In this document: positions 10,192 through 29,446 of the stretch, piece by piece | Layout: the number at the start of each line of letters is the position of its first letter | Position numbering within the stretch: the first letter of the stretch is position 1 | Virus record (IMG/VR): IMGVR_UViG_3300045119_000440 | Coordinates: 1-29,620 of that record | DNA length: 29,620 nt | Strand: one strand, 5' to 3' | Origin: a virus | The notes under the pieces: model-generated | What the model was told of the DNA's origin: nothing | What the model saw: only the letters and a program-made list of their open reading frames with translations | Databases searched by the model: none | Made by a program: the position numbers and the translations under genes

Positions 10192-10833
10192 TTACGGTTC
10201 CTTGAAGATAAGATCTTCATCGAAAGAGATCTGATTGCTAAGATCCCTGTTCGAACTTGAATCAGAAAATCCATCGCTGCCAGATGTCAGGACCTTGATC
10301 AGGAAACCATCAGACCTATGATCTGGAGGAAATCCATCATGACTAAGTGTGATGCTCTCTGCGGATGAATCAGACCTCACATAACCCCGATCGAACGGTC
10401 CTAGTTGCTGAGAGACGTTTCCCATCAGATCACGCTTGATAAGAAGATCAAACAGTTTCGATTGATCGACAGTGAGACTCAAGTCGCTGCCTGAGCTTGA
10501 CACGAGCACCATCGTCGGTAAACGAGTCTGGCCGTGCGGCATGGTAAAGATCGGTTTTCTGACATTCGTGAGATCTTGACCCCTGTGATCTAACGGACGG
10601 TATCCCGTCACAGCCTCTGTGATCAGAGAGTTCTCGATCTGATCAGAAATCGAAGAACTCAACGTAGCAGAGTCCATGGTACCACTCTGTGAGATGTACG
10701 GAGTGTAATCAATCTCATCATCAAAAGGAGCCCAGTACATGAAATTCAGCTTTCCCAATGAGAGCTGAGATTTTCCAAGACCTGTCAAGATGAGATCGAC
10801 AACTCGATTATTCTTGTCTAGAAAACCAGCCAT
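10192..10833 (-). CDS. Virion structural protein, paralogue of the DDEIDY-module protein
   Basis: This 213-residue protein starts at ATG 10833. It begins MAGFLDKNNRVVDLILTGLG and continues to PFDDEIDYTPYIS, which parallels the GFMDNSG...VLTDEGR...FGDDEIDY start of the protein at 2075-2791. The two genes flank the three FN3-containing genes. The C-terminal half (about 120-213) is acidic and Ser-rich, ending SNQISFDEDLIFKEP. The function is unknown. The shared N-terminal module may dock these proteins onto a common baseplate partner, which is inference. Spacing to the downstream gene is only two bases, so translation is probably coupled. Confidence 0.75.
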   Translation of the reverse strand: MAGFLDKNNRVVDLILTGLGKSQLSLGKLNFMYWAPFDDEIDYTPYISQSGTMDSATLSSSISDQIENSLITEAVTGYRPLDHRGQDLTNVRKPIFTMPHGQTRLPTMVLVSSSGSDLSLTVDQSKLFDLLIKRDLMGNVSQQLGPFDRGYVRSDSSAESITLSHDGFPPDHRSDGFLIKVLTSGSDGFSDSSSNRDLSNQISFDEDLIFKEP

Positions 10834-10864: not shown

Positions 10865-13063
10865 TCAAGAAGATCCCGATGTAATCACGTCGAATGAGTC
10901 AAGCAGGTCCGACGCTCTGTCGATAGATGTCTTAAAATATTGACTTCTGTTCAGCGTCGATCTCAGATCTTGAGCTGGAGATCCATTCTGAGATCTCCTG
11001 AGGACAAAGTCCAAAAAGTTTCGACTGTTAGAAATCTCGTCGTCGTCGAACGGAGAGAATGAAGGACTGACACCAGATCCGGATGAAAGAGGAATGTACG
11101 GCGTTCCGAATTCATTTTTCAAAAAGAATGACCTGGATCCGCTCAATGAACTTGACAAAGATCCCGTGATCTGAGAAAATACGGCGAACGAGTCTGATGC
11201 ACGTCCCGGATCGTCTGTGATTCCGACAGATCGTCCGTACTCTTCTTTTTCCTTGACATACACGTAATTGATCCCTATGTCGAAGTTCGCCGTTCCTGAG
11301 ATTATCGAGACTCTCCTGAACCCCGGACGCTGTGAGACGCTTCCACCTTTCGAGAATCTCCTTCCCTTTGATGGATAAAAGCTGTCTGTTCCTCTTCCCG
11401 TGTCTATGACGAACTCAAGACGAGCCTGACGAAACCAGATTCCCTTGCCGAAGTTCACGGAACCCGCATTCGATGACATCATCAGTCGCCACTTTCCGTG
11501 CACCTCAGTCCCTCGAAGACCAGGTCGAAAGCCTATGGTGTTGTTGGACGACAGTAGAGACGGAAAAGGATTCGGAGTGAGTGAAGGATCGAGGTAATCA
11601 AAGACCTTCCTAGAGTACACATCCTCAAGAAGAGGATACACTGGCTTGATCGTAACAGGTCCCAACTGAGAACCTGTCGTCGGAAACTCATTGACATTCG
11701 CAGATCCCCCTGGCCCACTGAGCCATCCGGGAGGAGGAGAGAGTCCCAATGAGGCAGTGAAATTCGTCGTCCCTGTGATGAATCCAGGCTTCACTCTGTT
11801 GTCGTAAAACCATGGGACAAAATTTCCAGCGACAGAAGTGTGATGATTCGTCAGTGAACCTGCGAAATTATCAGAAAAAGAAGGAATCGGATATCCCTCG
11901 ATCGCATACATGACAGCGTTCGGAGCAGAAGCTGATAAGGCAGAGATGTTGTTCGTCGCACTTCCCAACAGTGATCCTGTCGATTTTCCTGGTCCCAACT
12001 CATCGGCTGATGCATAGAGACGATCCAGATGATGAGGATTCGGAACTACCGAATTATCGCAAAAGACAGTCCTCATATCCATGTCCGAATCCCAAGTAGC
12101 GTAGAAAGGATCGAACGAATCGGATTGAGATATGAATCCAATGACGGGAACTCCACCAGAGAATGAATATCCGATACTAAAATCAGAGGTGACTGTCCTT
12201 CCCTGCCAGAGTAAATATGAACTTCTCAAAAGCTCAGGAATGGCGACATTATGTCCACTATAAGGTGCAAATCCCTTAGCTTCCATACTGTTCCAGAAAG
12301 GATGGGCAGAATAAAAATTGACATTAGGAGATCTCAGAGCGAGAGAAATAGCTCCAAGTCCGCAAAGAGTCGGTGATGCTCCTATTCCCGACGTTCCTGA
12401 CGACACACGGACATCATGAATGAACTCGACCCACACTCTGATATCTCTGATCTTTCCGTACTCAGCAACGTCAAAATCAAAGAATGCAGGAAAATCGATG
12501 CTTGTGTCAAAATATGAACCTGATGTCGCAGTGAAGAATGTCCTTCCAGGAACTCCAGAGCTACCGTTGGGATCAGCGTTTGGACCGTAAGTATACGGAT
12601 TTGATTGAGAAACAGAGGCGGTCGGAAGATTGGCAGAAGCTGAGAGCTTGTATGTCAACTTCAAGAAACGCGACTGCTTCGAGTAGTATGAAGATGCCGA
12701 AGCAGGGACGGCGGTCATCTCTAGAGCAAGAGAACCCGATGAGAAAGTGTTGAGCCTACTGACCTCATGATCTGAGGACGAAAAAGGAGGGATGACGAAT
12801 CCATCCTTACGACCGATCTGAAACCTAGTCCAAGAAGGAGGTGTCGCAAGCTGTTGCGGAAAAGATGCTGTCAAAGAACCAGAGATCCATTGATCGGGAG
12901 CTTCTCCCACATCAGCTCTCAACGCCTCTCCTCTCAGGAGACGAGAGTACAATCGTCGCTGAACCTTTCGTCGAATATTCATGCTTCCCGAGAGATCAAA
13001 TGACGACGTCGGCGCCGCCATAAGATCTGAGCTCAGATCAAAGATCGAAACATTGTCAGGCAT
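10865..13063 (-). CDS. Ser-rich virion protein with proprotein-convertase P-domain-like fold
   Basis: This 732-residue protein starts at ATG 13063 with GGAG nine bases upstream. Ser is very frequent (15 in the first 100 residues). From about residue 180 the sequence resembles the P (Homo B) domain of proprotein convertases. RDIRVWVEFIHDVRV then ISLALRSPNVNF match the usual I-x-H...DL-x-I-x-L-x-SP strand pair. HGKWRLMMSSNAG near 523, followed by WFRQARLEFVID, matches the closing G-x-W-x-L...L-x-F pattern. If this is right, more than 200 residues are inserted between the two halves. P-domains in secreted and phage proteins are generally non-catalytic beta-sandwiches. No protease catalytic domain is present here. 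An adhesin or fibre role is inferred. A divergent jelly-roll is the main alternative. Confidence 0.75.
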   Translation of the reverse strand: MPDNVSIFDLSSDLMAAPTSSFDLSGSMNIRRKVQRRLYSRLLRGEALRADVGEAPDQWISGSLTASFPQQLATPPSWTRFQIGRKDGFVIPPFSSSDHEVSRLNTFSSGSLALEMTAVPASASSYYSKQSRFLKLTYKLSASANLPTASVSQSNPYTYGPNADPNGSSGVPGRTFFTATSGSYFDTSIDFPAFFDFDVAEYGKIRDIRVWVEFIHDVRVSSGTSGIGASPTLCGLGAISLALRSPNVNFYSAHPFWNSMEAKGFAPYSGHNVAIPELLRSSYLLWQGRTVTSDFSIGYSFSGGVPVIGFISQSDSFDPFYATWDSDMDMRTVFCDNSVVPNPHHLDRLYASADELGPGKSTGSLLGSATNNISALSASAPNAVMYAIEGYPIPSFSDNFAGSLTNHHTSVAGNFVPWFYDNRVKPGFITGTTNFTASLGLSPPPGWLSGPGGSANVNEFPTTGSQLGPVTIKPVYPLLEDVYSRKVFDYLDPSLTPNPFPSLLSSNNTIGFRPGLRGTEVHGKWRLMMSSNAGSVNFGKGIWFRQARLEFVIDTGRGTDSFYPSKGRRFSKGGSVSQRPGFRRVSIISGTANFDIGINYVYVKEKEEYGRSVGITDDPGRASDSFAVFSQITGSLSSSLSGSRSFFLKNEFGTPYIPLSSGSGVSPSFSPFDDDEISNSRNFLDFVLRRSQNGSPAQDLRSTLNRSQYFKTSIDRASDLLDSFDVITSGSS

Positions 13064-13084: not shown

Positions 13085-14704
13085 TCATGAGGACGGAGGC
13101 AAGAAGGGAGCGATTGAGGACGAGATCAGATTTGTGATCTTCTGATATCCCTGATCATTGGGAGTAAAACTTCCTGAAGTCACATCGGATGAATTCAGGT
13201 TCTCAAACACAGGAATGTATATACATGGTTTTCCTGCCATCGTCTTCGCGCTAAGAAGGGGCGGAAGGGCGGAAGCAAAATTAACAGTGGCAGTTTGAGC
13301 GGTGGAATTTCCATCATTTCTGGTCGGCAGACTCGCTACCAAACAAAGTTGGACAGAGTTCACGGCAAAACACTGATCGATCTGAGCACTTATGTCACTA
13401 ATCATGAGTGATGCATCTCTGAATGGAGCGTCGTTACACCCCTCGAACAGAATGCAGATGTTCGGTATGAGATTGTTCACGTTATTTATCACAGTTGAAG
13501 TGACATCAGAGATGATCAGGCCCTGACCTCCTACGAATTGAGGCCTCGGTGTGTTTCCAGAGAGCATGTCTCCTAATGGACGAAGACTCCATGGTCTAAA
13601 GGCATTCCACAGCTGACCACGATATCCGAGAGAAAGGTATAGAGATCCCGATCCTCCGATTCCCACCGTCAGATCGTCTCCGCAGTACATGACCCGAGTA
13701 CTCATCCTGTATCTATTCACGAAATAAGACTCGATCTGCGAAGGAAGTGGAGCTGCTGATCCTGTGTAGATGAGTGTCTCGACGATGCTTCCACTCATGA
13801 ACCACTGCTCGAGTGTAGCATGTCCTCCCAGGGAAATACGATCAAGGGAACCTGATCCGACATTTCCCGACACCTGACCCGTGAAAAGTTTCGAAAGAGA
13901 TCCTGAACCGTTGAAGATTCCTGTCACAATCTCCCATTGTCCAGCATCAGTATTCGTGAACTGACCCGTGTTCAATGTCGTAGATCCGACCAGGTTGATC
14001 GACTGTGTCTGAATCAAGAATCGAGAATTTGCAGATGAAAACAACGTAGAGAACGATGCTGTGTTTATATTGTTCTTGTAGAGCATGCCATACGTCCAAG
14101 GCATACTGCCCGTGCTTCCTGTAGGAAACGCGGAAGATCGCAACACATCATCGACTCCATCGAATCTCACTCCTGATTTTAGGTTCAACTGCGGGCTGTC
14201 GACGACAAGCCTGAATGTCGGACGCTTAGAACCGCTCGCCTGGGTGATGTTCGACGCGGTTCCCAAGGATCCTAGGTTCTTCCAAGTAGTGATCGACCCA
14301 CTGTCAACGAGGGTCAAGTTGTTCTGACCATCGATGTTCTGAGCATCAAACCAGATGAAAGGAGATCCTGGAGGAGCGGACGATGTAACAGAGGAGGTGA
14401 CCGGAGGAATGGGACCCCCTCCTGTGAAAGAGAAGACTGGATTTCCATATGCATCCACAGACCTCGCATCATAGTGCCTCAAGGAGGTTGGCACCTTGAT
14501 TTTTCGAAGATCATTTCCTCTGAATACGACAACCCCCGAGTTATTCGAACGATCAGATGGATCGCTAGAAGGAGACATCACTCCATTGACATGAAAAATT
14601 TGGGAGCCGAAGACAACGACGTTATCGGCACGCCCGGCTGGAACATTGGCGAACTTTATCCCCCGAGCAAACTGCAACTTCTTGGGATTCGTGAATTGAC
14701 TCAT
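13085..14704 (-). CDS. Tail adhesin: LamG-like domain plus degenerate SGNH-hydrolase-like domain
   Basis: This 539-residue protein starts at ATG 14704, overlapping the upstream stop by four bases (ATGA). Residues about 115-330 look like a LamG-type lectin (FIWFDAQNIDG, WKNLGSLG, GVRFDGVDDVLRSS). From residue 338 the order of motifs follows SGNH/GDSL esterases: MYCGDDLTVG at 339-348, GYRGQLWNAF at 360, FVGGQG at 390, FEGCNDAP with Gly422-x-Asn424-Asp425, and TPNDQGYQKI at the C-terminus. The nucleophile position reads Asp344 instead of Ser (the DNA is GGA GAC GAT). The usual D-G-x-H-P before the final helix reads G-S-F-T-P (Gly511, Thr514), so the Ser/Asp/His triad seems absent. It may therefore bind rather than cleave acetylated glycans. 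The fold assignment is fairly confident; loss of activity is inferred from an alignment made by eye. Confidence 0.85.
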   Translation of the reverse strand: MSQFTNPKKLQFARGIKFANVPAGRADNVVVFGSQIFHVNGVMSPSSDPSDRSNNSGVVVFRGNDLRKIKVPTSLRHYDARSVDAYGNPVFSFTGGGPIPPVTSSVTSSAPPGSPFIWFDAQNIDGQNNLTLVDSGSITTWKNLGSLGTASNITQASGSKRPTFRLVVDSPQLNLKSGVRFDGVDDVLRSSAFPTGSTGSMPWTYGMLYKNNINTASFSTLFSSANSRFLIQTQSINLVGSTTLNTGQFTNTDAGQWEIVTGIFNGSGSLSKLFTGQVSGNVGSGSLDRISLGGHATLEQWFMSGSIVETLIYTGSAAPLPSQIESYFVNRYRMSTRVMYCGDDLTVGIGGSGSLYLSLGYRGQLWNAFRPWSLRPLGDMLSGNTPRPQFVGGQGLIISDVTSTVINNVNNLIPNICILFEGCNDAPFRDASLMISDISAQIDQCFAVNSVQLCLVASLPTRNDGNSTAQTATVNFASALPPLLSAKTMAGKPCIYIPVFENLNSSDVTSGSFTPNDQGYQKITNLISSSIAPFLPPSS

Positions 14705-17619
14705 GTTCTTATGTAGACCTGGATGACACCTTCAGGTTGAAATGGAGCCTGCTGACGACGATAATTCCATTGCAACTTAGGACGCTCGAGCATGTGACTC
14801 TCGATGACGAACTCATCTCCCAAAAACACAGTACGAGCAGGAATGAGTCTCCTGACCATGTCGAGAAACGATCTGTCAAAAAATTCCAGCATATCAGAGA
14901 ATACCCTGAAATTCAATCTTCCCTGCAGTCGTCTGAAGTAGTTGAATCTCAATATTTCGAGATCATGATATGTCGCTCTGAACCTGTTCACAGGAAGACC
15001 TATCGCAATATTAAAATCATCCATCGTCGAGATGATCTGAGATATGTCCTCGTTCAATGCATCGATCATACCAAACTCGAGAGAAAGGACCCTGTTATCG
15101 AGGAAAGCATCCCCCGGATCAGGAGACGACGAATCAAAGACTCTCACTTTCTCTTCGTTCCATCCCAGGTCAGGAGCTGCGATGTAGTTGTAATCAAGCA
15201 AAAATCGAGTGAACGGGATCGAATCGTGCAAGAATCCAGAACCTGTTCCCCACAGATTGTGGGCGCTGTAGTCGTAGATATTCGTAAAGCTTCCCGATCC
15301 ATCGGCGGTCAGTCCCTCGTTCAATCTCCAGTGCAAAGCAAGATCATTTGACCCTTGAAACTCCTCTGTGCCGTAGCTCTGGAAGTTGAGAGCATGATCG
15401 TCGAGTTCAGCATCGCTTAGTGCTTGATTCCACACTCTCATCTCTTGAACCCACATCTGGGTTGGAGTCGATCCCGAGGCTCCCATCGTCATCGTTAGAC
15501 TCAATGAACTAGAGATAGATCCAGAGACGATCGTCTGGGTCCTGAACCTCTTCGAGACAGCGTCATCGTCGATCGATCTCACATCGATGAAAAATGACGA
15601 TGACGCTGGGTCTCTCAAAAATGAGACATTATACCACTCATTGTCAAATATGTTCGCCCCGGAAAGGATCACTGTCCCTTCTGAGCTAGACATGATCAGC
15701 GATCCTGTTTGAGATCCCAACGCATTCTTCAGAAATGACATCTGATAGGACTGGGAAGCATTCCCTTTGAGAGACCAGATGAGACCACCCGACAATGTCG
15801 CAGGCATCTCGAGTGTTCCCGTTGTCGGAAATTTCACACGTGATTCTACCGTGTTGAAAGATGATGAAAATGAAGGTGAGACGATATGAGATCCAGTGAA
15901 TGAACCAGATCCCAACTGTACGGTAAACACACTCTTCTGAGAATTGATCCGATTTGTCGAAATCCCGACGATCGGTTTAAATCCAAACTCTTTCAATTTC
16001 ACAAAGTTCTTATTGACCCCGTAAATCCTCAAGAGCGACTCGACGCTCTCTCTCGTTCCTTTTGTCTTGTAGAGATATACGAGATTGATGAGGGTCCTCT
16101 TCCAAAATTCGTTCTTGATCTGAAAGAGTTTTGTGTCTATCTCCCTGTTCGCTTCAGTGTTATGAAGAACATTTTTCCCCAAGATGTACTGGGAAGCATC
16201 AGCGCTCAGGAAGTTTGCCGTAAACTCCCAGCCGAATTGTTTTCCGATGTCTTCGAGCAAAGCATCGGGAGTCTGATCAAACTCTCCGTACTTGCTCCTC
16301 AAGACAAAGATCGTCTGATCTATCCTTGTCTTGATTTCATCAAAATTTCTAGCAAGTATGTAGATAAATTTCTCGAGAACGTCAGTGTTCTTCAGTTGTT
16401 CCAACTGAAAGAGCTGGCTAGGCAACATGCGTGTGATGATGTTGTCGTTCGATCGATCATAAGCACTCCCCGACGCTTGCTGAACTGAGATCAGCGCTTG
16501 GATCTCGGGAGAATCGAAAGAGAGGATGGGATCAGGATCTTCAAAAGGTACGAGAGATCCCGAAGCTCTCATCGCTGGATAATATCCGAAGATCCTTCCA
16601 TTCAATCGGTGGCCCGAATAATCGAGAACGATATTGGAATTAGTGGGAGACGAACCTGTCTCATTGAACCTCCAGAGCGCGGTCAAGTTTCGCTGGGAAA
16701 AGATCTTGCAGTTGAAACTTGAGCTGATGTCGAATACGGAGAGCGGGACATTCCAGATCCTGACATTGTCGAGTGCACCGCTGAACGGTACGCAGTTCTT
16801 ACCTGAAATACTACCACTTGCGAATGAGATCTTCGTCGAACCGACGAAGATCGGTCCTGATATCCCAGAGCTCGAAGAAGAAACGAGCACAGGAAACGAT
16901 CCTATGCTACCCGTGTAGATGAACGAGAAAGGAGTGGAAAATGACGAGTTATCGTAGACGCAAGAAAAGTAAGAAGCCGTTCCAGGATTGACGAGGGTAG
17001 AGATCTCAGTAGAATTCGATCCAGAAACCATCCTGAAATATGCCCGAGATCCTGAAAAGTATACTGAGTAACCATCACCCGAACCAGTGACCTTCTGCGC
17101 AAGCACCATCACAGCAGACGATCCTGTGAGCACTGGAGGAGGGATGCACCAGAACTCCAAAGAAAGCGAGCTAGTTCCAGGACTCAACATTCCCGTACGA
17201 GCAACGCCTGAGTCGACTCCCACGTCTTCACAAAGAATGTATGACGAAGAGATCTGAGAATCAAATCTTATGTGACCTGATCTCTTTGGCCATGTATCTA
17301 GCACATGATTCTGATATCCATCGAGATCGTCGATGAATGCCTGTCGATCTGCCCTCGTCCCGTCATAGGGATACTCGTTGAGTATCTTCTCTCCTGTTAT
17401 GTTGAAGTAATCAAGGGCAGAGTTGAAGAAGACGAAGTTCGCAAAATTCGAGTAGTCAACACGAGGGATGACCTCGCTGAATTTTCCAAACCTGTCGACG
17501 ATGTACTGCTGCTCCTCAAGTTTACTCGACAAAGAATCGAGGCTTTGGGGAGGACTAGCGACGAGCTCTTCAGGTCGTCGCAACTTCTCATCGAACAATG
17601 AAAACAGGCGATCAGACAT
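14701..17619 (-). CDS. Baseplate/tail protein I-like protein with two LamG-like domains
   Basis: This 972-residue protein starts at ATG 17619, two bases after the upstream stop. Domains read in order: an N-terminal helical part with LFDEKLRRPEELV; a LamG-like domain at about 115-320 (LSLEFWCIPPP, GALDNVRIWNVPLS, ALWRFNETG); a helical segment at about 400-540 that resembles phage tail protein I (ILARNFDEIKTRIDQ, LLEDIGKQFGWEF, LYKTKGTRESVESLLRIYG); a second LamG-like domain at about 565-790 (MWVQEMRVWNQALSDAEL, ALHWRLNEG); and a C-terminal part with FNYFRRLQGRLNF, RLIPARTVF and IESHMLERPK. The tail-I resemblance suggests attachment at the baseplate periphery, where fibres bind. It follows gp6 and the DNRLRE gene and overlaps the SGNH-like gene by four bases, so these probably form one peripheral assembly. 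Confidence 0.85.
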   Translation of the reverse strand: MSDRLFSLFDEKLRRPEELVASPPQSLDSLSSKLEEQQYIVDRFGKFSEVIPRVDYSNFANFVFFNSALDYFNITGEKILNEYPYDGTRADRQAFIDDLDGYQNHVLDTWPKRSGHIRFDSQISSSYILCEDVGVDSGVARTGMLSPGTSSLSLEFWCIPPPVLTGSSAVMVLAQKVTGSGDGYSVYFSGSRAYFRMVSGSNSTEISTLVNPGTASYFSCVYDNSSFSTPFSFIYTGSIGSFPVLVSSSSSGISGPIFVGSTKISFASGSISGKNCVPFSGALDNVRIWNVPLSVFDISSSFNCKIFSQRNLTALWRFNETGSSPTNSNIVLDYSGHRLNGRIFGYYPAMRASGSLVPFEDPDPILSFDSPEIQALISVQQASGSAYDRSNDNIITRMLPSQLFQLEQLKNTDVLEKFIYILARNFDEIKTRIDQTIFVLRSKYGEFDQTPDALLEDIGKQFGWEFTANFLSADASQYILGKNVLHNTEANREIDTKLFQIKNEFWKRTLINLVYLYKTKGTRESVESLLRIYGVNKNFVKLKEFGFKPIVGISTNRINSQKSVFTVQLGSGSFTGSHIVSPSFSSSFNTVESRVKFPTTGTLEMPATLSGGLIWSLKGNASQSYQMSFLKNALGSQTGSLIMSSSEGTVILSGANIFDNEWYNVSFLRDPASSSFFIDVRSIDDDAVSKRFRTQTIVSGSISSSLSLTMTMGASGSTPTQMWVQEMRVWNQALSDAELDDHALNFQSYGTEEFQGSNDLALHWRLNEGLTADGSGSFTNIYDYSAHNLWGTGSGFLHDSIPFTRFLLDYNYIAAPDLGWNEEKVRVFDSSSPDPGDAFLDNRVLSLEFGMIDALNEDISQIISTMDDFNIAIGLPVNRFRATYHDLEILRFNYFRRLQGRLNFRVFSDMLEFFDRSFLDMVRRLIPARTVFLGDEFVIESHMLERPKLQWNYRRQQAPFQPEGVIQVYIRT
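16828..16852. repeat. Perfect 11-bp inverted repeat, 3-nt loop, inside a coding region
   Basis: The arms GATCTTCGTCG (16828-16838) and CGACGAAGATC (16842-16852) are exact reverse complements around AAC. The repeat lies in the first LamG-like domain of the 972-residue protein. No role is known; it could fold in the mRNA. Confidence 0.6.
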
Positions 17620-17621
17620 GC

Positions 17622-18980
17622 TCAGACAACCTTGAACTTGAAACCATTGTCGAGTATCTGACGCTCTCCATCGATATCAAACAGGAAAACGATCCTGTAG
17701 ACATTTCTTGGCGGAAGGGAGCTCATGAAAAATCGAAAGTAGTTTCCGTCCTTATCGTATGACAATCTCGTTGTCTCGATGCTACCTGTTCCAAAAGGGA
17801 CCACGACCTCATCGGTGCGGTCGTTATCGATCCTATAGTAAGCCTTGGTCACAACGGATCCAAGTGGCCCCGATGATGACGTGAGCACAACAGCAGGGTT
17901 GTAGTTCCTGTCTCTGACGTATAGCTTCAACCGAGGAACATCGTCCTGTGAGTACTGATCCTTGAGATTTGAGACGTTCACGAAAAAGACATCCTGACCG
18001 AGAGAGACTTGGGAGAAATTATCGGTCGGATGAAATGTCCCTGTCAGGTACGATCTTGATCCTGAGAACCAGATGTCATGAAAGACAGACCCTGAGTACG
18101 ACCCCGTGGAAAGAAGGAAACTGGCGCTGTAGACACCTGGCATTCCCGTGTGAGATCCGGTGACAGTCATGAGCGTCCCGCTCAAATCACCGATCGAGAC
18201 ACTCAGGCTACCTGTTCCGATCCCTGAGATGTCAGCGTATGCTCCCTTCACTCTGTTATACAGGTAGAGTGAACAGGTGTTATCGAAGATGAAGTTGTTC
18301 CTATCGTCCTTGATCGAGTCATCCCAGCTTGCCTCAAGATACGGGACCCTGTCTCCAAAGTGGGTCTCGCGTGAATGAAACATCTTGATGAAGTAATCAG
18401 CATTGCCCGTCTCAAGAGACGATGACATCCTGACCAGGAAACCGTTGTTCGTCACGGTCCCAGACATCCAGCTCTGGACGATGGGAGTCACATCAGCGAC
18501 GATGTCCTCATCTCCGATGTCAAAATGGATGATGGACGATGGAGAGCTCAAAAAATCTCCCCCTGGAGTCGACCAGGCAAGGTTCGATCTCGCGTTGATC
18601 CAGTTGGCAAAACCGATGTCTGAGAAGTCGTCGTTATCCATCCCCCGACCCTCGTCCCATGAACGAGCGAGTGGAAGGATCTCCATGTCAAACGACGACG
18701 GCAGTGTCTGATCATGTCGAGCGTTTTTCAGTCTCAGCTTGTACGTGAGGTTGGAAGGAGCCTGATGACTCGCCGTCAGACTCGAGATCTGAGAGAGATC
18801 GAACTTCATCAGAATTCGAGCAAGACTGCCGCTCGTTATTCCAGCCGATGAACTTACAGGAGCGACCACGAAACAGTTCATTATCTCAGAAGATCCAAAG
18901 TTAGACGCCGTCTGTGGGACACCCCCAACTTGGAAATTGGTGATGAATGTGTCCTGCGATGGAAAGATGCGAAAGATCAC
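17622..18980 (-). CDS. DNRLRE/CBM96-like domain protein in the baseplate cluster
   Basis: This 452-residue protein starts at GTG 18980, overlapping the gp6 stop as GTGA, with GGGAG eight bases upstream. Residues 1-205 follow the DNRLRE (CBM96) pattern: FRIFPSQDTFI at the start, ARILMKFDLSQISSL, LTYKLRLKNA, ILPLARSWDEGRGMDN, FANWINARSNLAWSTPGGDF, DIVADVTPIVQSWMSG and TNNGFLVRMSSS. Domains of this type occur in secreted bacterial surface proteins, and some bind polysaccharides such as alginate. The rest (about 225-452) is beta-rich, with repeated SGS/TGS tripeptides, and may hold two immunoglobulin-like units. Its place directly after gp6 suggests it binds the wedge. Carbohydrate binding is inferred from the fold alone. 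Confidence 0.85.
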   Translation of the reverse strand: MIFRIFPSQDTFITNFQVGGVPQTASNFGSSEIMNCFVVAPVSSSAGITSGSLARILMKFDLSQISSLTASHQAPSNLTYKLRLKNARHDQTLPSSFDMEILPLARSWDEGRGMDNDDFSDIGFANWINARSNLAWSTPGGDFLSSPSSIIHFDIGDEDIVADVTPIVQSWMSGTVTNNGFLVRMSSSLETGNADYFIKMFHSRETHFGDRVPYLEASWDDSIKDDRNNFIFDNTCSLYLYNRVKGAYADISGIGTGSLSVSIGDLSGTLMTVTGSHTGMPGVYSASFLLSTGSYSGSVFHDIWFSGSRSYLTGTFHPTDNFSQVSLGQDVFFVNVSNLKDQYSQDDVPRLKLYVRDRNYNPAVVLTSSSGPLGSVVTKAYYRIDNDRTDEVVVPFGTGSIETTRLSYDKDGNYFRFFMSSLPPRNVYRIVFLFDIDGERQILDNGFKFKVV

Positions 18981-20809
18981 TTGCTTTCTCCCACGATGTC
19001 CTTGACAGGATTCTTCACTTCAAAGATCGAATTGTCAGGACAGTATAGTATGTTGTTCGATGTTGCTGCCGCCACATCAAATGTCACCTGAGAGTATGAG
19101 AGACCGTTTGACTGCAGACCGACGATGTTCCTGAACCCCAGCTGATAGACCGAGATAACTCCGAGGACATCCTGGATCCTAGATTGCAAATCGGAGATGA
19201 TGATCGGCTGTCCGATCTGCCACCTATCAATGTCAAAATAGTCCTGGATCGTCTGCAGGCAGGCAGCGAGCACCTGGACCTTGTTCATCTTCGGTGAAGT
19301 GACGACTCCGAACTGAACTCCTAAATTGATGATGTCACTCTCGAGAATGTTGATCCCGTCGGTGAGCATCCTGAACTGAGAAAGGTACGTTGAGATATTG
19401 TTCTTTAGGGTCGAAGTGGCCTGGGTCAGGTGTCCATCAGGATCCTTCGCGAGCAGGTGTAGATCGAAAGCGAGCAGGCTCACTGTGTCTCTCTTGACAG
19501 TGACCTTCTCAGGTTTTCCGAACCTCGCAGGAAGGGAGAGGACTCGAGCTATCACGTCCTCTCGAGTAACCACCCTATTCTGGGCCGCGAAGAAGGCAGC
19601 GCTGTTCGCCTTGATCTCTGCCACCGATTCTTCAGGAGCACCTCCATCGGTCCTGCTCACGTTAGTACACTCGAGAGAACCGATCACTGATGATTTCTTG
19701 GCAACATCGAGACCAGTCGATGAAAAATCCAAGACTGCCTCATTCACACTCTTGATGGATCCTGGAGGGACATTCGTCTGCGGTCCTCCTCCGACTCGAT
19801 ATGAGACCGTGATCGTCGTATTAACAGGACTCAATCCCAGAGTCCTCGTGCGCAGGAAATTCTGTGGGTCCAACGAAAATGACGAGAACGTCCGTCGACC
19901 AGCGAGCGGTAAAGACAGATCGGCAAGGTTCGGCACGAGTTCATCGTCAAAGCTGATCCCGTCTCCAGAACCGAAGATGATGCTCGTCTTATTGGTCGTC
20001 GGATCCCTATCGGAGATGAATCTCCGTGGAACTGTCTTGAGTCTCAAGACGTAGGGGACAATTGAATTGTCGTCGTTCACGTTCGTCGTCTGATCGAAGA
20101 CTGTCTCCTGTGCCAGGTAGTTCACTTCAAACCACTCATTCCCGTCACTGTCAAACACGGAAATGATCTCGATGACATCTGATTCAGGAAGCTCAACCTG
20201 AAAGAACTGCTGAAAATCGGAGACAGATGTCGAAAATGTCTTCGTCTCTCCTGCGACAACCTGCACATCTTTCCTGATGGCGAAAAATGTCGGAAGACCA
20301 GTAGTGCTATCGAACCGTGATCCTGTCACGAACCTATTATCGGAAGGAGATGATGCACTGAACTGCACATCGTCGAGTGTCTCAAAAATCGTCCCGTTAG
20401 GACCACCGATCTTGGCTCCCTTTCTCAAGATTGGAGAGTAGAGATCGTCTGGGACACGAGAACCGAGCTGGGTCGTCGCAGGAACCTCTATGAAGAACGA
20501 TTCTACACCGCTCGCTGCGCGTTTTCCAGAGGGACGATATCCCCTGCTCTTAGCATTCGAGACAATCGATTCGATCTGTCGAGATGTCTCATCTCTCAGC
20601 TCGTTAAAATTCTGATCGATGTAGAAGGCAAGAACATCTCCCACGAATGACTGAAGCTCGAGTATCGCCATTCCCGGTGAGCTCTCATTGAAATCCTGAA
20701 AGACTCCGCTGTGATGAGCCTGAGAAAACTTGATCAGATCAGACTTAAACGATCTGAAGTCTTTGTTCAGGTATTTTACGCTCTTGTCGAGAACAAAATC
20801 AGTTGCCAT
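18977..20809 (-). CDS. 6: Baseplate wedge protein, gp6/J-like
   Basis: This 610-residue protein starts at ATG 20809, with GAGGAG just upstream overlapping the gp25 stop. T4 gp6 is about 660 residues. It has the marks of the gp6/Baseplate J family: an N-terminal helical part (FRSFKSDLIKFSQAH, PGMAILELQSFVGDVLAFY), a beta-rich centre with IIFGSGDGISFDDEL, and the family-typical stretch ESVAEIKANSAAFFAAQNRV followed by TREDVIARVLSLPARFGKPE near 400-445. In T4 this protein forms the inner wedge ring that triggers sheath contraction. It follows the gp25 homologue, as gp25/gp6 pairs do in most contractile systems. Nothing suggests truncation. Confidence 0.93.
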   Translation of the reverse strand: MATDFVLDKSVKYLNKDFRSFKSDLIKFSQAHHSGVFQDFNESSPGMAILELQSFVGDVLAFYIDQNFNELRDETSRQIESIVSNAKSRGYRPSGKRAASGVESFFIEVPATTQLGSRVPDDLYSPILRKGAKIGGPNGTIFETLDDVQFSASSPSDNRFVTGSRFDSTTGLPTFFAIRKDVQVVAGETKTFSTSVSDFQQFFQVELPESDVIEIISVFDSDGNEWFEVNYLAQETVFDQTTNVNDDNSIVPYVLRLKTVPRRFISDRDPTTNKTSIIFGSGDGISFDDELVPNLADLSLPLAGRRTFSSFSLDPQNFLRTRTLGLSPVNTTITVSYRVGGGPQTNVPPGSIKSVNEAVLDFSSTGLDVAKKSSVIGSLECTNVSRTDGGAPEESVAEIKANSAAFFAAQNRVVTREDVIARVLSLPARFGKPEKVTVKRDTVSLLAFDLHLLAKDPDGHLTQATSTLKNNISTYLSQFRMLTDGINILESDIINLGVQFGVVTSPKMNKVQVLAACLQTIQDYFDIDRWQIGQPIIISDLQSRIQDVLGVISVYQLGFRNIVGLQSNGLSYSQVTFDVAAATSNNILYCPDNSIFEVKNPVKDIVGESK

Positions 20810-20816
20810 TTACTCC

Positions 20817-21215
20817 TCACTGTGTTATGCTGACGTCAATGGCAGAGAACAGGTCGGGCCTTCCATGAAGACTAAATTTCACGTGTACACCTATCGCGTG
20901 CTCGACAAGACTCGGATCGTCTTCCTGAAAGAGGACGACAAGATCATCGATGTTTACGAATGGCATCCATTTCGAGATCTGCGAGTGTATCCTGTCAGAG
21001 ATCTTCTCACGAAGAATGTCTCCGGATTCCATCTCAAAAAAGAACTCGATGAGGTTGCATCCGAAATTGGCATGCATGACCCTCTCTCCCCAGTTCGTCA
21101 ACAGCAGCGACTTGATGTTTTCCTTTACGGCAGAGATCTGATCGCTGGTCGTCTCGAGATATCCAAGAGAACCAGTTGTCTTAGAGAAAGGAAATGTGAA
21201 TCCGATCGGTGGCAT
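20817..21215 (-). CDS. 25: Baseplate wedge protein, gp25-like
   Basis: The ATG at 21215 gives 132 residues, the same length as T4 gp25. A TTG at 21242 would extend the protein by nine residues into the upstream gene and is less likely. The family core is plain: YLETTSDQISAVKENIKSLL, LTNWGERVMHANFGCNLIEF, and the C-terminal half with IDDLVVLFQEDD. Gp25 has a lysozyme-like fold without catalysis and links the inner baseplate to the sheath initiator. The stop of the preceding gene (21219-21217) is one base before this ATG, and gp6 follows seven bases later, so the three are probably co-translated. Confidence 0.93.
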   Translation of the reverse strand: MPPIGFTFPFSKTTGSLGYLETTSDQISAVKENIKSLLLTNWGERVMHANFGCNLIEFFFEMESGDILREKISDRIHSQISKWMPFVNIDDLVVLFQEDDPSLVEHAIGVHVKFSLHGRPDLFSAIDVSITQ

Positions 21216-21216
21216 C

Positions 21217-21720
21217 CTATGTGACTGGAAGTATCGAGACAATTGACGCAGGAGGAATCGTGGTCGCGGTCACAGTCAACAGCGTTGTATACTTATGGAG
21301 TATCTTGGAGATTTTGTCTGTCGCATCCTCGAGAGACTGCGGTCCTTCCGACAACATGCTCGAAATCTCTGGGGCTATTCCTGCTAACGGAACAGGGATC
21401 GTGGGATTTATCGGAATGAATCCCGGACCAGTCCAGACGACAGGAGTCCAATACGCAATGAGTCCCGGTGCCCATCCCGTCATCAGAGGAGCGATGAGCG
21501 CTGAGGCGAGGACTGACTTGATGCCAGGAGAGACTATCGAGAGTGTCCCGGCGGTCGGAGATCCCGAACTCACGTAAGAATCGTACGCATCAGCGAGAGA
21601 GTTTGCGACAACGATAGGTATGTTCGGAGGATCCCATGCGATGTTTTCCGGATCCTCATTGAACGTCTTCTGAAGAGCCTGTATCAGGCTGCTCTTGAGC
21701 GTGTCAGAAGAGAGAGCCAC
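21217..21720 (-). CDS. Conserved phage protein of unknown function between spike and gp25
   Basis: This 167-residue protein starts at GTG 21720 (MALSSDTLKSSLIQALQ), three bases after the stop of the spike gene. An ATG two bases earlier (21722) is out of frame. The N-terminal third is helical. The middle (about 65-120) is rich in Pro, Gly and hydrophobic residues (LIAPLMTGWAPGLIAY, GPGFIPINPTIPVPLAG), and a helix with SMLSEGPQSLEDATDKI follows. The C-terminus is beta-like and hydrophobic. I recall similarly arranged small proteins beside gp25 in large myoviruses, but no function. It may be a baseplate component or chaperone. The hydrophobic middle could suggest membrane contact, but no clean transmembrane helix is seen. 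Confidence 0.75.
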   Translation of the reverse strand: MALSSDTLKSSLIQALQKTFNEDPENIAWDPPNIPIVVANSLADAYDSYVSSGSPTAGTLSIVSPGIKSVLASALIAPLMTGWAPGLIAYWTPVVWTGPGFIPINPTIPVPLAGIAPEISSMLSEGPQSLEDATDKISKILHKYTTLLTVTATTIPPASIVSILPVT

Positions 21721-24530: not shown

Positions 24531-24713
24531 TCAGTCATCCTGGTCAGGAGGACCGTAATTCCTGCCCTTGACATATTTCGATGTCAGACACACGCGATCA
24601 TTTCTGATCTCAAGATCGACATCTCTGAGAGACTGAGAGATGTCTTTCATGTCTACCAGTCCTCGACGTACAATTTCGACGATTTCCAACAACGTATCTT
24701 CTCCGAACTTCAT
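24531..24713 (-). CDS. Small acidic-helical protein of unknown function
   Basis: This 60-residue protein starts at ATG 24713, overlapping the kinase stop as ATGA. The first 35 residues look helical (EDTLLEIVEIVRRGLVDMK), followed by a conserved-looking tail (LTSKYVKGRNYGPPDQDD). No family is recognised. The exact ATGA overlap upstream and the close start of the next gene support it as a real gene. Confidence 0.65.
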   Translation of the reverse strand: MKFGEDTLLEIVEIVRRGLVDMKDISQSLRDVDLEIRNDRVCLTSKYVKGRNYGPPDQDD

Positions 24714-25651
24714 GATTGGACCTCCATTATATCACGAGACAGTCTCATCTTACAACAGCTTGTACCAAAACTTGAGACGACAGAGCTGGCACATTCATTT
24801 GCGAACCTCACAGCAGATCTCACGTCATTTCCATTGAGAAGCAACGAGCACGCAAGTGCGGCAGTGTGAGTATCACCGCAGCCTGTCACATCGTTCATCT
24901 TTTCATTCATGACAGGAACGGGGAAATCTTCGGTATGAATTATGTAAGATGATTTTTTGGAAGATAAACCACCGTACTGATTCAATTGAGTCGATGATTT
25001 TCCCCGGGTGACAATCACGTATTTGAAGATAGATTCCAAGGGATGAGACGAGAACGAAACCTGCGCTGAGTACTCTCCAAGATTAAGTTTCAGAACATCA
25101 AAGCCCTTGTAGATGTTGAGATCTTTTCTCTTTGAATCGACGATCTTGACAGAACTCGAAATCAAATGATCGTTGATCGTCTCTAAGATCCTCTTATCAA
25201 CGGTGCCTTTATCGTAATCAGAGACGACAAGACCATCAAACTTTACACGTGAGCTCAGATCCTTGATGTGACTATTGAGAAAGAGAAGATCTTGATTGAA
25301 AAATCTTTTCCTGTTATCTACTCGAGCAAGGTATTTTGAGTCTCCGTCGACAAATCTCGTCTTTACGATCGCTGACTCATGTGGGACTCTCAAGCACATG
25401 AGAGTGTTCACATCGAGATCATCCAAGAGCTCCGACGTCTTGTCATCGATGAGACCGCACACCCAGATCTCGATCTCTCCAGAACAGATCGATGAGATGT
25501 TATTGACGACATTTCCCATCCCTCCCAACCTATGCACAACATTGACAACATCCCAGATCGGGATTGGAGCCTCCTGCGCATTTCTAGAGCTTGAGACAAA
25601 GGAGTATGTGTCCCTGATCATGTCTCCTAGGACAAGCAGTCTCTTTTTCAT
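24710..25651 (-). CDS. hldA: PfkB-family sugar kinase, HldA-like (heptose-7-phosphate kinase type)
   Basis: This 313-residue protein starts at ATG 25651, overlapping the stop of the upstream HldC-like gene as ATGA; earlier in-frame starts would run into that gene. It resembles the N-terminal kinase domain of E. coli HldE: LVLGDMIRDTY at the start, GGMGNVVNNI at 43-52, KYLARVDNRKR, VVSDYDKGTV, VDSKRKDLNIYKG and the PfkB signature DVTGCGDTHTAAL at 254-266, with catalytic Asp260. HldE phosphorylates heptose-7-phosphate at C1 on the way to ADP-heptose. The exact substrate here is inferred, since PfkB kinases are diverse. It follows HAD and HldC-like genes in one operon, which supports the pathway. 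Confidence 0.85.
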   Translation of the reverse strand: MKKRLLVLGDMIRDTYSFVSSSRNAQEAPIPIWDVVNVVHRLGGMGNVVNNISSICSGEIEIWVCGLIDDKTSELLDDLDVNTLMCLRVPHESAIVKTRFVDGDSKYLARVDNRKRFFNQDLLFLNSHIKDLSSRVKFDGLVVSDYDKGTVDKRILETINDHLISSSVKIVDSKRKDLNIYKGFDVLKLNLGEYSAQVSFSSHPLESIFKYVIVTRGKSSTQLNQYGGLSSKKSSYIIHTEDFPVPVMNEKMNDVTGCGDTHTAALACSLLLNGNDVRSAVRFANECASSVVSSFGTSCCKMRLSRDIMEVQS

Positions 25652-26130
25652 GATCGTCCGATACCTTCGATGATCTTCGTTGTCGACCACGCGGGATCAA
25701 AATCAGAAATGACGACCAGGGCGAGATCAGATCCGACGATTGTGTTTGACCTATAATCTCCACCTTTCACAATGACATGAGGATGAAGAAGCTCGATGAG
25801 AGTCTTCGGAGTATCGTCTGAGAATAGAACGACATGATCGACAAATCTCATCGAAAGAAGGATGAGCGTACGAGCGTACTCGTTGAGGATCGGTCTACTG
25901 GGACCTTTCAACTTTGAGACAGACGCGTCATCATTCAATCCCACGACAACTGCTCCACTGGGACCTGCCATCTCTCGAGACTTCTGAAGAACTGAGATGT
26001 GACCAGGATGGATCAGATCAAAACACCCATTTGTAAAAACGATCCTCTCATATCCTCCCGCGAACATCTTTCGACCATGGGATCGGATGTGCTCACAGGA
26101 TTTTTCAAGATATCTCGTGTCATGAATCAT
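25648..26130 (-). CDS. hldC: HldC-like sugar-1-phosphate nucleotidyltransferase
   Basis: This 160-residue protein starts at ATG 26130, overlapping the HAD gene stop as ATGA. It aligns by eye over nearly its whole length with the C-terminal domain of E. coli HldE. Visible motifs are VFTNGCFDLIHPGH at 31-44 with the HxGH nucleotide-binding motif (His41, His44), VVVGLNDDASVSKLKG, SRPI, SDDTPKTLI, VKGGDY at 121-126, and a late STTKII at 149-154. HldE-C transfers AMP to heptose-1-phosphate, giving ADP-heptose. The family also includes related cytidylyltransferases, so the nucleotide is not certain. The kinase directly follows it, so the two halves of HldE are present as adjacent separate genes in reversed order. 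Confidence 0.88.
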   Translation of the reverse strand: MIHDTRYLEKSCEHIRSHGRKMFAGGYERIVFTNGCFDLIHPGHISVLQKSREMAGPSGAVVVGLNDDASVSKLKGPSRPILNEYARTLILLSMRFVDHVVLFSDDTPKTLIELLHPHVIVKGGDYRSNTIVGSDLALVVISDFDPAWSTTKIIEGIGRS

Positions 26131-26492
26131 GAGTTGACAATCTCTTCTATCGTATTGAATGAAAAATCGAAAGGCGTCATACACCTATCGTCGACGTAAA
26201 GATGACCGGGAGGCTTTCCGAACATGAGACGATTATACTTGACTCCGTTCTCCTTGAGCCACTCCCGAGTCATCTCACCAAGATTTTTTTCGATCTTATC
26301 GATGTCCCCATCGTAACTGTTCATACCACGAGCAGTGAATATCGTAATGTGCCATCCCAGGTCGTACATCGTATTGACCCGATCGATCATCCTCCTTATC
26401 GGAGGGGCACAGCGATAAAGAAAGCTGCTCGGCATCTGCATGCAGAGAGTACCATCAAGGTCGATGACAAGCTTCTTGATGATTTCCTTCAT
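26127..26492 (-). CDS. Small HAD-family phosphatase (capsule biosynthesis type)
   Basis: This 121-residue protein starts at ATG 26492, four bases after the upstream stop. It has HAD motif I DLDGT with Asp11 and Asp13, motif II in ITIFTARGM, and the C-terminal GKPPGHLYVDDR with the acidic pair of motif IV. The short form without a cap domain matches phosphatases often annotated as capsular polysaccharide biosynthesis proteins. In the ADP-heptose route a HAD enzyme (GmhB) removes the C7 phosphate between the kinase and nucleotidyl steps. GmhB is longer and of different subtype, so that role here is a guess from context. Confidence 0.8.
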   Translation of the reverse strand: MKEIIKKLVIDLDGTLCMQMPSSFLYRCAPPIRRMIDRVNTMYDLGWHITIFTARGMNSYDGDIDKIEKNLGEMTREWLKENGVKYNRLMFGKPPGHLYVDDRCMTPFDFSFNTIEEIVNS

Positions 26493-26496
26493 GGAG

Positions 26497-27414
26497 TTAT
26501 CCGATCACTGCACGTCCTGCCATGGCGAGCCAATCCTTGTCCTCACGGAGTTCATCGTTCCGTTCGATGACAGCCGTGAACATCCGTTCCTTGATACCGA
26601 GCTTTCGACAGACGTCTCGGAGGTTATTGATGTCCTTGGGAAAACAATGTCCACCGGCACCCAGCATCCCGTCATGACCCGGGACAGAAGTGTGGCTCCC
26701 TCCCACTCTCGGATCGATCGCAGCCAGACCTCGCACGTCTTCAAAATCGATCTTCATGGTCTTGCAGATCTGATAGATCTCATTCGCGAACAGGACCTTC
26801 GTCATGAGCATCCCATTCGTGAACAGTTTCACCATCTCAGCGACAGACGAATCGCAGTGAAGGAGCAGAAGTTGACCGTTCTCGACCCTCTTCGGCTGGA
26901 CTTCCATGAAGTACTTGAGGACGACAGTGGCATCATCGGGATCTCCACCGACGATGATCCTATTCGAGTTCCTAAAGTCGATGACACTGTTCTTCTCTGT
27001 GAGAAATTCAGGAGAAAAGACGATCCTCAGCTCAGGATGAGCATCTCTCATCGACTTCGTAAAACCCGGACTCACAGTGCTCTTGATGACGCACACGAAG
27101 CTATCAGGATTTCGACCGATAGCATAGGCAGCCTGCTCGATGTCTGAAATGACAGACTGCACGATCCCCGTGTGACAGCTGCCATCGCTCACGCTCATGG
27201 GAGTGGGAACGCAGATGAAGATGACCTCAGCAGATTTCACGAGCTCGTTCAGTGTTCCCAAGTTCGGAAATGCACGATCATAGAGCTTGATCGTGCAATG
27301 ATCCAAGAAAAACTCAGACACGGCCCTTCCCACGTATCCGTATCCGACGACACCGATGGTCGCCTGATCGATCTTGAAATCCTCGATGAAATCCAGAGCA
27401 TTGATGTCAATCAT
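26497..27414 (-). CDS. Short UDP-glucose/GDP-mannose dehydrogenase family protein
   Basis: This 305-residue protein starts at ATG 27414, overlapping the glycosyltransferase stop as ATGA. An N-terminal Rossmann fold is shown by GVVGYGYVG (Gly24-x-Gly26-x-x-Gly29), followed by VIFICVPTPMS, IKSTVSPG and FSPEFLTE. The central helix (SSVAEMVKLFTNGM) and the catalytic motif GAGGHCFPKD with Cys257 are intact. Typical members are 390-450 residues; this one lacks most of the C-terminal UDP-binding domain, so the sugar nucleotide is uncertain. The usual reaction is oxidation of the C6 alcohol of a UDP-sugar to a uronic acid. A perfect inverted repeat lies in the gene at 27271-27297. Confidence 0.85.
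   Translation of the reverse strand: MIDINALDFIEDFKIDQATIGVVGYGYVGRAVSEFFLDHCTIKLYDRAFPNLGTLNELVKSAEVIFICVPTPMSVSDGSCHTGIVQSVISDIEQAAYAIGRNPDSFVCVIKSTVSPGFTKSMRDAHPELRIVFSPEFLTEKNSVIDFRNSNRIIVGGDPDDATVVLKYFMEVQPKRVENGQLLLLHCDSSVAEMVKLFTNGMLMTKVLFANEIYQICKTMKIDFEDVRGLAAIDPRVGGSHTSVPGHDGMLGAGGHCFPKDINNLRDVCRKLGIKERMFTAVIERNDELREDKDWLAMAGRAVIG
27271..27297. repeat. Perfect 10-bp inverted repeat, 7-nt loop, inside a coding region
   Basis: The arms TGCACGATCA (27271-27280) and TGATCGTGCA (27288-27297) are exact reverse complements around TAGAGCT. The repeat lies in the Rossmann part of the dehydrogenase gene, and no function is known. Confidence 0.6.
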
Positions 27415-28472
27415 TTCTTCTCCAAAAGATCCTTGAACAGTCCATTGAACCTCTGGGCCTGCACGGCCCACCTCTCTGAGAGAGCGTATTTTCGTGCGCG
27501 ATCTCCGATGCGATGCCACTCTCCCGTCTGTATCAAGTCGACGATCGACCAGACCCATCCTTCGATGGGTTCCACAATGCCTGTCATCCTATTCTCGATG
27601 AGCTCGGAGGGTGTCCCCATCCCAGGAGGATATAGTACAAGGCTGCCGGCTGCCATGGCCTGCCGATGAGCTCGGGATGATGGCTCCATGAAATTGGATG
27701 TGTACGGAAGAATACCCGTCTTTCCGAAAAGATCCCAGAGTTCAGGACCATTGTCAATGTTCCCGTGAAACACCACAGCTGGATGTGCGATCCTCTGTCC
27801 TGATGAATAGTCAGGATGACAGACGTGTAACCTGAATCTTCGATCGACCTTAAAGAGCTCATGGGCAAGACACAGTGCACTCGATATTCCCCGTCCGGGA
27901 TCGGACGCCCAGATCATCTCATAAGGATTCTTGTCAAGGCTTGGCTGATAGATATCGGTGTCGACACCCAGAGTCACTCCATCGAGCAACCTATCCTGAG
28001 GGAACGATGGTCCCAGCTCCTGGGAGAGATTCCTCTTGTGCCACTTCGGAAAACACAATATTCCGAAAAGCTTCTTCTCGACGAAAGCCTGCAAGACAGA
28101 TCGCTTCCACTCATCAGAGAAGCTGTGATCTTGACAATTGATGACGTTGATCGCTTCAGGTCGATAGAGCTCAGGAAACCACTTGCGCCAGTGAATGACG
28201 ACGTCGAACTGGGGTGCGTATTTTTTGTAGTTCTCCTCGTTGTCACACGCGAGAACTCCTGAATTGATCTCTCTTGGTTGAAAGACGATTCCACCGTCCT
28301 CATCTCTATGATTGATCGTATCTCTGTAATCGACTGTCGTGATGAGGACGGAGTTTCGACCATCTCGAGCATAGTAGTAAGGAAGCTCGAGATGACACTT
28401 ATTGAACATGTCTCGATATCCAGGAGAAAGCTCCTGATACTTCCTCTTCACTCCGACGAAAGCGATCCTCAT
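27411..28472 (-). CDS. GT-B fold glycosyltransferase (GT4-like)
   Basis: This 353-residue protein starts at ATG 28472 (MRIAFVGVKRKYQ), overlapping the SDR stop as ATGA; a GTG at 28496 would extend it into that gene. The C-terminal half reads as the donor-binding domain of a GT-B enzyme: IWASDPGRGISSALCLAHEL, RLHVCHPDY, VVFHGNIDNGPELWDLFG, then EPSSRAHRQAMAAGSLVLY at 263-281. The usual E-x7-E donor motif has Glu263 but Gln271 at the second position. The N-terminal domain contains INCQDHSFSDEWKRS. Donor and acceptor are unknown; the neighbouring dehydratase and dehydrogenase probably make the donor. Confidence 0.82.
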   Translation of the reverse strand: MRIAFVGVKRKYQELSPGYRDMFNKCHLELPYYYARDGRNSVLITTVDYRDTINHRDEDGGIVFQPREINSGVLACDNEENYKKYAPQFDVVIHWRKWFPELYRPEAINVINCQDHSFSDEWKRSVLQAFVEKKLFGILCFPKWHKRNLSQELGPSFPQDRLLDGVTLGVDTDIYQPSLDKNPYEMIWASDPGRGISSALCLAHELFKVDRRFRLHVCHPDYSSGQRIAHPAVVFHGNIDNGPELWDLFGKTGILPYTSNFMEPSSRAHRQAMAAGSLVLYPPGMGTPSELIENRMTGIVEPIEGWVWSIVDLIQTGEWHRIGDRARKYALSERWAVQAQRFNGLFKDLLEKK

Positions 28473-29446
28473 CGATCCAGCGCCTTCCTGTACCACTCGA
28501 TAGTACGCATCATGCCATCATCGAAACTAGTGTCAGGCTGCCAATTTGTCAATTTGAAGAGACGAGAGCTGTCGATGCACTGACGTTCGATCTCCTTGAA
28601 AGTCGCCCCTCTCTCGAGGATGGTCGGCTCGAGATCTTCTCGACCCATCAAGAAGCAAATCCTCCTGATCACATCGATTATTTTCAAGGGACCGTTTCCA
28701 CCGACATTGAAGACATTCGGTGCGAGGTCATCTGAGATCTTCGCTACATGATCATATCCTCGGATGACATCGTCGATGTAGATGAACTCCCGCTCCATGT
28801 TCTCGATGTCGGCATAGAGGATCGGTCGCTTCCCCTTGATGATATTGACGATCGTCTTGGGGATAAGCCTCGAAAAATTCCAATCTCTCGGACCATAGAT
28901 GTTGCTGCACCTGACGACAGAGATCGGCATATCGTAATTGTGAGCGTATGACCTCGAGATCATGTCCATGCATGCCTTCGAAGTGTCATACGTGTTGAGA
29001 GGACGCAGGTCATGCTTCTCAGTGTAAGGAAGATCAGCATGATCACCGTACGCTTTATCGGACGATGCGACGATAATCTTGGAACACTTCCCTACCGAGC
29101 GAGCCGCCTCAAGAAGAGAGACAGTACCCATCACGTTTACGTGATACGTTGTCATGGGATCTTGAGAAGATATCCTGACGATCGAGTAGCCCGCGAAATG
29201 AAAGATCACATCGATCTCATTGTTCGAGATTACCTCTCGGACGAGATTCATATCGGTGATATCACCCACATACATGTTGTATGTGCCTTTTTCCCGAGAA
29301 CTCGGAGGAATGTTCCTGATAATTCCGATAATGTTGGCCCCAGAAGAGCACAGGGCTTCGGCCATGTGCGATCCGACGAATCCTCCGATGCCCGTGATGA
29401 GCACGTTCTTACCTTCCCATTGTGGAAACGTGAGTTTCTCTACCAT
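28469..29446 (-). CDS. NAD-dependent SDR sugar-nucleotide dehydratase/epimerase (CDP-glucose 4,6-dehydratase-like)
   Basis: ATG 29446 gives 325 residues and is preceded by AGAGG five bases upstream; an earlier in-frame TTG at 29488 lacks support and would run further into the upstream gene. Extended SDR features: VLITGIGGFVG at 15-25 (Gly19, Gly22, Gly25), GDITDMNLV, FHFAGYS, SSDKAYG at 128-134 and the catalytic Tyr153-x-x-x-Lys157 (YDTSK). Later come SVVRCSNIYGPRD, MEREFIYIDDVIRGY and FNVGG. SSDKAYG instead of SSxxVYG points towards CDP-glucose 4,6-dehydratases, but a GDP-mannose or UDP-sugar substrate is possible. It starts the run of ATGA-coupled sugar genes and overlaps the previous gene by seven bases. 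Confidence 0.88.
   Translation of the reverse strand: MVEKLTFPQWEGKNVLITGIGGFVGSHMAEALCSSGANIIGIIRNIPPSSREKGTYNMYVGDITDMNLVREVISNNEIDVIFHFAGYSIVRISSQDPMTTYHVNVMGTVSLLEAARSVGKCSKIIVASSDKAYGDHADLPYTEKHDLRPLNTYDTSKACMDMISRSYAHNYDMPISVVRCSNIYGPRDWNFSRLIPKTIVNIIKGKRPILYADIENMEREFIYIDDVIRGYDHVAKISDDLAPNVFNVGGNGPLKIIDVIRRICFLMGREDLEPTILERGATFKEIERQCIDSSRLFKLTNWQPDTSFDDGMMRTIEWYRKALDR

Follow-up and report, generated by a model that had tools for sequence, protein, structure and literature searches.

A probable phage tail protein with a CE3-type SGNH domain that lacks its catalytic residues and may serve in glycan attachment

Introduction

What does an esterase-like domain do on a phage tail when its catalytic residues have been replaced? 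SGNH domains occur on receptor-binding proteins such as E. coli G7C gp63.1, those of Klebsiella prophages and Acinetobacter Aristophanes gp41, for which the excerpts cited here report deacetylase or esterase activity (PMC13123978, PMC11058221), including two Klebsiella prophage SGNH tail fibres with esterase activity (PMC13123978). Here we analyze a protein that likewise appears to place an SGNH domain on a receptor-binding protein but, in contrast to these active tail fibres and tailspikes, lacks the catalytic residues. It is encoded in a 29,620-base stretch of viral DNA (the window, meaning the whole stretch analyzed). The original prediction, made from the letters of this DNA, proposed that all three triad positions of the domain seem to be substituted while the fold residues remain, and that the domain may bind glycan next to a LamG-like lectin or may use a different catalytic residue. 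A literature search for degenerate SGNH domains in phage tails found none, with most subscription journals outside its coverage.

Results

The protein, of 539 amino acids, is the product of an intact open reading frame at 13085-14704 on the minus strand, in a tail module that runs on that strand and encodes further same-strand proteins beyond this gene. Because the frame overlaps its upstream neighbor by 4 bases and is separated from its downstream neighbor by a 21-base gap, it belongs to this module, and the identities of the surrounding genes suggest that the product is located on the tail. The gene, its parts and its neighbors are as follows.

13085..14704, minus strand: whole gene, intact open reading frame; putative modular tail attachment protein (anchor, LamG-like domain, pseudo-SGNH domain)
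14405..14704, minus strand: putative N-terminal anchor, about residues 1-100, from phmmer matches in related phages and alignment
13706..14371, minus strand: LamG/concanavalin A-like domain, residues 112-333, from identity to the nearest relative (L175, below) and from relatives matching Laminin_G_3
13088..13705, minus strand: pseudo-SGNH (CE3-type) domain, residues 334-539, from the 2VPT match, profile score, and Foldseek and VIA-align comparison with CE3 structures
14701..17619, minus strand: upstream neighbor, 972-amino-acid tail/baseplate protein with a LamG-like part (Laminin_G_3, E 3.6e-12)
10865..13063, minus strand: downstream neighbor of 732 amino acids, the other border of the slot, with homologues in 15 distinct contigs
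18977..20809, minus strand: baseplate wedge protein of the same module, lying upstream (match to phrog_219, baseplate wedge subunit, E 4.7e-17)
20817-21242, minus strand: gp25-like protein of the tail module

Homologues of the 972-amino-acid protein stand before the corresponding slot in related phages; in L009 and L016 (about 13200-20400) the matches to it fall in pieces several kilobases apart, as if the homologue had been split by an insertion. A sugar-nucleotide gene cluster adjoins the tail module (window 24710-29488) and encodes a PfkB-type kinase, a cytidylyltransferase-like protein, a UDP-glucose/GDP-mannose dehydrogenase and a member of the GDP-mannose dehydratase/epimerase family, and homologues of several of its genes border the tail module in related phages. 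Elsewhere in the window, two small proteins (2075-2791 and 10192-10833) match the same open reading frames in several related phages and are therefore probably paralogues.

We assign residues 334-539, by homology and modelling, to an SGNH alpha/beta/alpha fold of the CE3 type. A phmmer search matched residues 336-526 to 2vpt_A, a C. thermocellum CE3 esterase (E=7.7e-6), and a CE3-type profile built from eight other domains (seven bacterial plus 2VPT, leaving out L175 and the sister-phage protein P0002) gave the window protein 72.9 bits, whereas none of 2000 shuffled versions of the domain exceeded 4.3 bits. The 539-amino-acid protein had no SGNH match in Pfam, PHROGs or NCBIfam, and Pfam PF13472 (Lipase_GDSL_2) left it unmatched at E<=1. 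An AlphaFold model of the domain, computed with two relatives, reached moderate scores (pTM 0.60, mean pLDDT 55.6); the full-length model (mean pLDDT 40.6) was left out of the analysis. Foldseek with the domain model placed three CE3 structures at the top (2vpt, E 3.4e-7, followed by 5b5l and 5b5s), and VIA-align superposed it on 5b5l (Z 14.9, rmsd 2.8, 160 aligned), 5b5s (Z 14.8, rmsd 3.0, 161 aligned) and 2vpt (Z 13.4, rmsd 3.0, 162 aligned), scores to which other GDSL enzymes come close in Z. The SGNH-like character first proposed is thus borne out by the phmmer match, the profile score against shuffles and the fold search, but the nearest solved relatives in sequence (phmmer) and structure (Foldseek) are CE3 acetylxylan-type esterases instead of the rhamnogalacturonan acetylesterase type suggested for comparison. 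The proposed block order stood in part: GCND begins at residue 422, PNDQGYQK occupies 515-522 and the block II glycine is Gly395, within GGQG, but YRGQLW is a CE3-type helix motif and no canonical SGNH block. In the alignment, the CE3 calcium loop motif DFVG..D.D (as described in the excerpted part of PMC9487903) is by eye missing from the window domain, and RPLGDMLSGNTPRPQ stands there.

The catalytic site was read from an alignment of 11 sequences, the window domain and 10 others, which places three substituted residues at the triad positions.

13673..13675, minus strand: Asp344 (codon GAT), at the nucleophile Ser position; Ser in 10/10 other aligned domains
13172..13174, minus strand: Gly511 (codon GGA), at the catalytic Asp position, three residues before the His
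13163..13165, minus strand: Thr514 (codon ACT), at the catalytic His position; His in 10/10 other aligned domains

Both the open reading frame and the alignment confirm the predicted change of Ser to Asp344 and of D-G-x-H-P to G-S-F-T-P, with G511-S512-F513-T514-P515 occupying that site, and the question whether relatives keep the Ser is answered by all ten aligned domains, which keep the His likewise. The acid position holds Asp in seven of the ten and Ser in L175 and in two near-identical Cereibacter domains, which have an Asp one residue before it. The window domain keeps the oxyanion Gly395 (block II) and Asn424 (block III), so that of the S, G, N and H residues it retains G and N while S and H, and the acid too, are gone. 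Homology, the fold search and a close relative retaining Ser and His together uphold the claim that the whole triad is substituted in a kept fold. Sequencing error is an unlikely source of the changes because the genetic code demands at least two base changes at each site to turn Ser into GAT and His into ACT. With nucleophile, base and acid gone, ester hydrolysis by the serine-hydrolase route would be impossible, and the alignment argues strongly that this activity has been lost in the window domain.

Residues 334-539 contain no histidine, and the whole 539-amino-acid protein has three, at positions 38, 77 and 295; the triad could therefore not be rebuilt within the domain, and the possibility that another part of the chain or another subunit supplies a His or Ser found no support. 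A further alternative is new chemistry, in which Asp344 would act as nucleophile or a metal would be bound by Asp343 and Asp344 together with the GCND loop. The nucleophile position is taken precisely by an acidic residue, Asn424 and Asp425 are kept, and Asp nucleophiles occur in the unrelated alpha/beta hydrolase fold, all of which speak for it. We nevertheless regard it as very improbable, and disfavor the earlier suggestion of a different catalytic residue, since a domain without His has no usual base inside it, the arrangement is absent from all relatives aligned, and the domain model leaves the pocket below pLDDT 50 (residues 342-413, which include Asp344 and block II) and so does not give its geometry.

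The nearest relative, reached by a CE3-guided scan, is L175, a LamG-SGNH protein encoded on the Mu-like phage contig IMGVR_UViG_3300045119_000430, which is 48% identical to the window protein over the LamG-SGNH cassette and 53% over the SGNH domain. L175 has the same two-domain cassette but, unlike the window protein, retains Ser and His, lacks the window's anchor and occupies a different gene position. Its Ser-His dyad is kept with the Asp already replaced, as in many CE2 dyad enzymes that likewise lack the Asp (PMC9487903, in excerpt), and it scores 49.5 bits with Pfam GDSL_2, above the cut-off of 32.9. The L175 gene (5236-6621) is flanked by head-tail adaptor genes on one side and tail sheath genes on the other, away from tail fibre genes, in surroundings that comprise a head protease, major head protein, head-tail adaptor and sheath; L175 matches in a plasmid collection fell in 29 records, 19 of them Streptomyces. 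GC content is 48.6% in the 539-amino-acid gene, 48.0% in the window and 62.6% in the L175 gene, and it is even along the window gene (anchor 48.3%, LamG 48.9%, SGNH 47.7%). As the gene resembles its own genome, a very recent transfer from an L175-like source is unlikely.

In the tree, the window domain and L175 form a clade (support 100/100) in which the branch leading to the window domain is 0.87 long and that leading to L175 0.10. Because the tree has a midpoint root and a small outgroup, and the window's letter make-up was flagged as unusual, the direction of loss is a matter of parsimony, not proof: the nearest relative retains the Ser-His dyad, which makes a loss derived in the window lineage the more economical reading. 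The simplest history would begin with an active bacterial-type enzyme, pass through a phage-borne cassette in which a Ser-His dyad was left, and end with full loss in the window lineage. This catalytic loss is represented by one sequence, with L175 as its one close relative; IMG/VR scans, whether queried with the full-length protein or the SGNH domain alone, returned nothing, phage collection scans gave no relative, genome-contig scans gave no confirmed relative, and a later IMG/VR scan returned the L175 contig again and nothing else.

A domain whose catalysis had become useless might be decaying and on its way out. The long window branch (0.87 versus 0.10) and substitutions in blocks I, III and V fit such a course, and the poor match of block III, the least conserved motif (3/9), together with that branch, makes relaxed selection a possibility. 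However, the open reading frame is intact, its composition is like that of its own genome, and 107/202 SGNH residues are still common to L175. We consider decay improbable: the SGNH domain matches L175 at 107/202 versus 96/217 for LamG, which argues that it has not simply decayed.

The LamG stretch, residues 112-333, is 44% identical to L175 (96/217). A LamG-like lectin as neighbor of the SGNH domain, as first proposed, is supported through relatives, two of the four aligned LamG-part sequences matching Laminin_G_3 (best E 2.9e-5), but not by the window's own stretch, which has no Pfam match, Laminin_G_3 being absent at E<=1. A LamG profile gave no credible match among solved structures. Related Erythrobacter phage domains were found by tblastn from the L175 LamG-SGNH protein.

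Related phages, reached via neighbor genes, indicate what else the anchor can carry. With residues 1-120, phmmer matched seven open reading frames of these phages (E 1.5e-19 to 4e-13), and with P0002 the anchor set comprises eight contigs; the anchor HMM, having been trained on its own hits, adds no independent support, and the anchor found nothing beyond chance level in PHROGs and solved structures. Kelch propellers form the cargo in four contigs, three by Pfam (L172 4432-5982, L165 4129-5877 and L086 12295-14484) and L087 counted with them as near-identical to L086 by eye in the alignment; such beta-propellers on tail anchors are an unusual tail cargo, and L086 has a LamG inserted besides. 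Anchor proteins in L164, L093 and L095 are free of cargo. P0002 carries a triad-bearing SGNH domain (GDSIS, GTND, DLTHP); its anchor resembles that of the window protein only weakly (E 0.019 in phmmer without filters, unlisted with filters on), and it was grouped by slot and aligned motifs. Its SGNH domain was rejected as direct ancestor of the window domain, being not CE3-like (13.7 bits) and on a very long branch. A PF13472 search of 36 related-phage records gave two matches at E<=0.01, neither over the cut-off; one is P0002, and the second, a short frame holding a stop (L085), was discarded as spurious. Across the 15 distinct contigs with homologues of the downstream neighbor, an anchor-bearing frame lies directly upstream in 7 and other proteins in 8. 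We thus find the receptor-binding-protein layout of a conserved N-terminal anchor and variable C-terminal cargo, and the comparison indicates that constant anchor and exchanged cargo have the arrangement of a receptor-recognition slot.

The cargo-free proteins imply that cargo is dispensable in some relatives, which favors a purely structural SGNH fold serving as spacer, oligomer contact or tip, with LamG alone recognizing the host. We find this rather unlikely, as a small alpha/beta enzyme fold is in our judgement an unlikely mere spacer and the SGNH domain is no less conserved than LamG, although neither point is decisive.

Discussion

Our analysis favors, as the probable reading, an inactive CE3-derived SGNH domain that grips a host surface glycan beside LamG on a myovirus-like tail. 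The first 100 residues or so would form an anchor that fixes the protein to the baseplate region, as its gene position and sharing among related phages suggest, and the cargo behind it would comprise a LamG-like lectin domain and then the CE3-derived SGNH domain, whose descent from an active carbohydrate acetylesterase is shown by homology. The alignment shows that this domain has lost nucleophile, base and acid but retains the pocket's Gly/Asn side along with the fold, and it most probably acts as a non-hydrolyzing grip on a host surface polysaccharide, perhaps an acetylated one. Variable tail attachment, a LamG partner and a retained fold fit glycan recognition, and by analogy and sequence glycan binding is the most likely role of the domain, argued less firmly than the loss of hydrolysis. 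More tentatively, the acetylesterase may have turned into a pure lectin in which Asp344 contributes to a newly formed binding site, perhaps together with a metal, so that the slot could accommodate an SGNH domain that cuts or one that grips. Overall, the evidence supports the pseudo-enzyme reading well, leaves the lectin plausible and makes a new catalyst unlikely.

Comparison with known systems sharpens these expectations. The window domain shares fold and sequence over its whole length with the CE3 esterases CtCes3-1 (2VPT) and TcAE206 (5B5S), including the block I GD..T.G frame, the block II Gly and the block III Asn, but differs in its replaced Ser, His and Asp, in the calcium loop missing by eye, and in being joined to a phage anchor and LamG. 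In another CE family, CtCE2 of Cel5C-CE2 offers a carbohydrate esterase site reused for polysaccharide binding, as we propose here: according to the excerpted source, it binds cellulose non-catalytically in the esterase site, retains the Ser-His pair and esterase activity, and involves that pair itself in binding (PMC2661963). In the window domain, by contrast, the Ser-His pair is gone, which counts against a pseudo-esterase binding reading. For Klebsiella phage KP32 gp38, a capsule depolymerase receptor-binding protein, the cited excerpt reports that binding to capsule was seen solely when the catalytic residues were mutated and no domain was missing (PMC13082707).

A clear case without catalytic residues beside a relative with Ser and His means that the presence of an SGNH fold is no proof of activity. 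The slot in the sister phage holds a triad-bearing SGNH domain, in contrast to the catalytically empty domain of the window, and the window protein, L175 and the sister-phage slot form a matched set for asking whether adsorption proceeds by cutting or by gripping alone.
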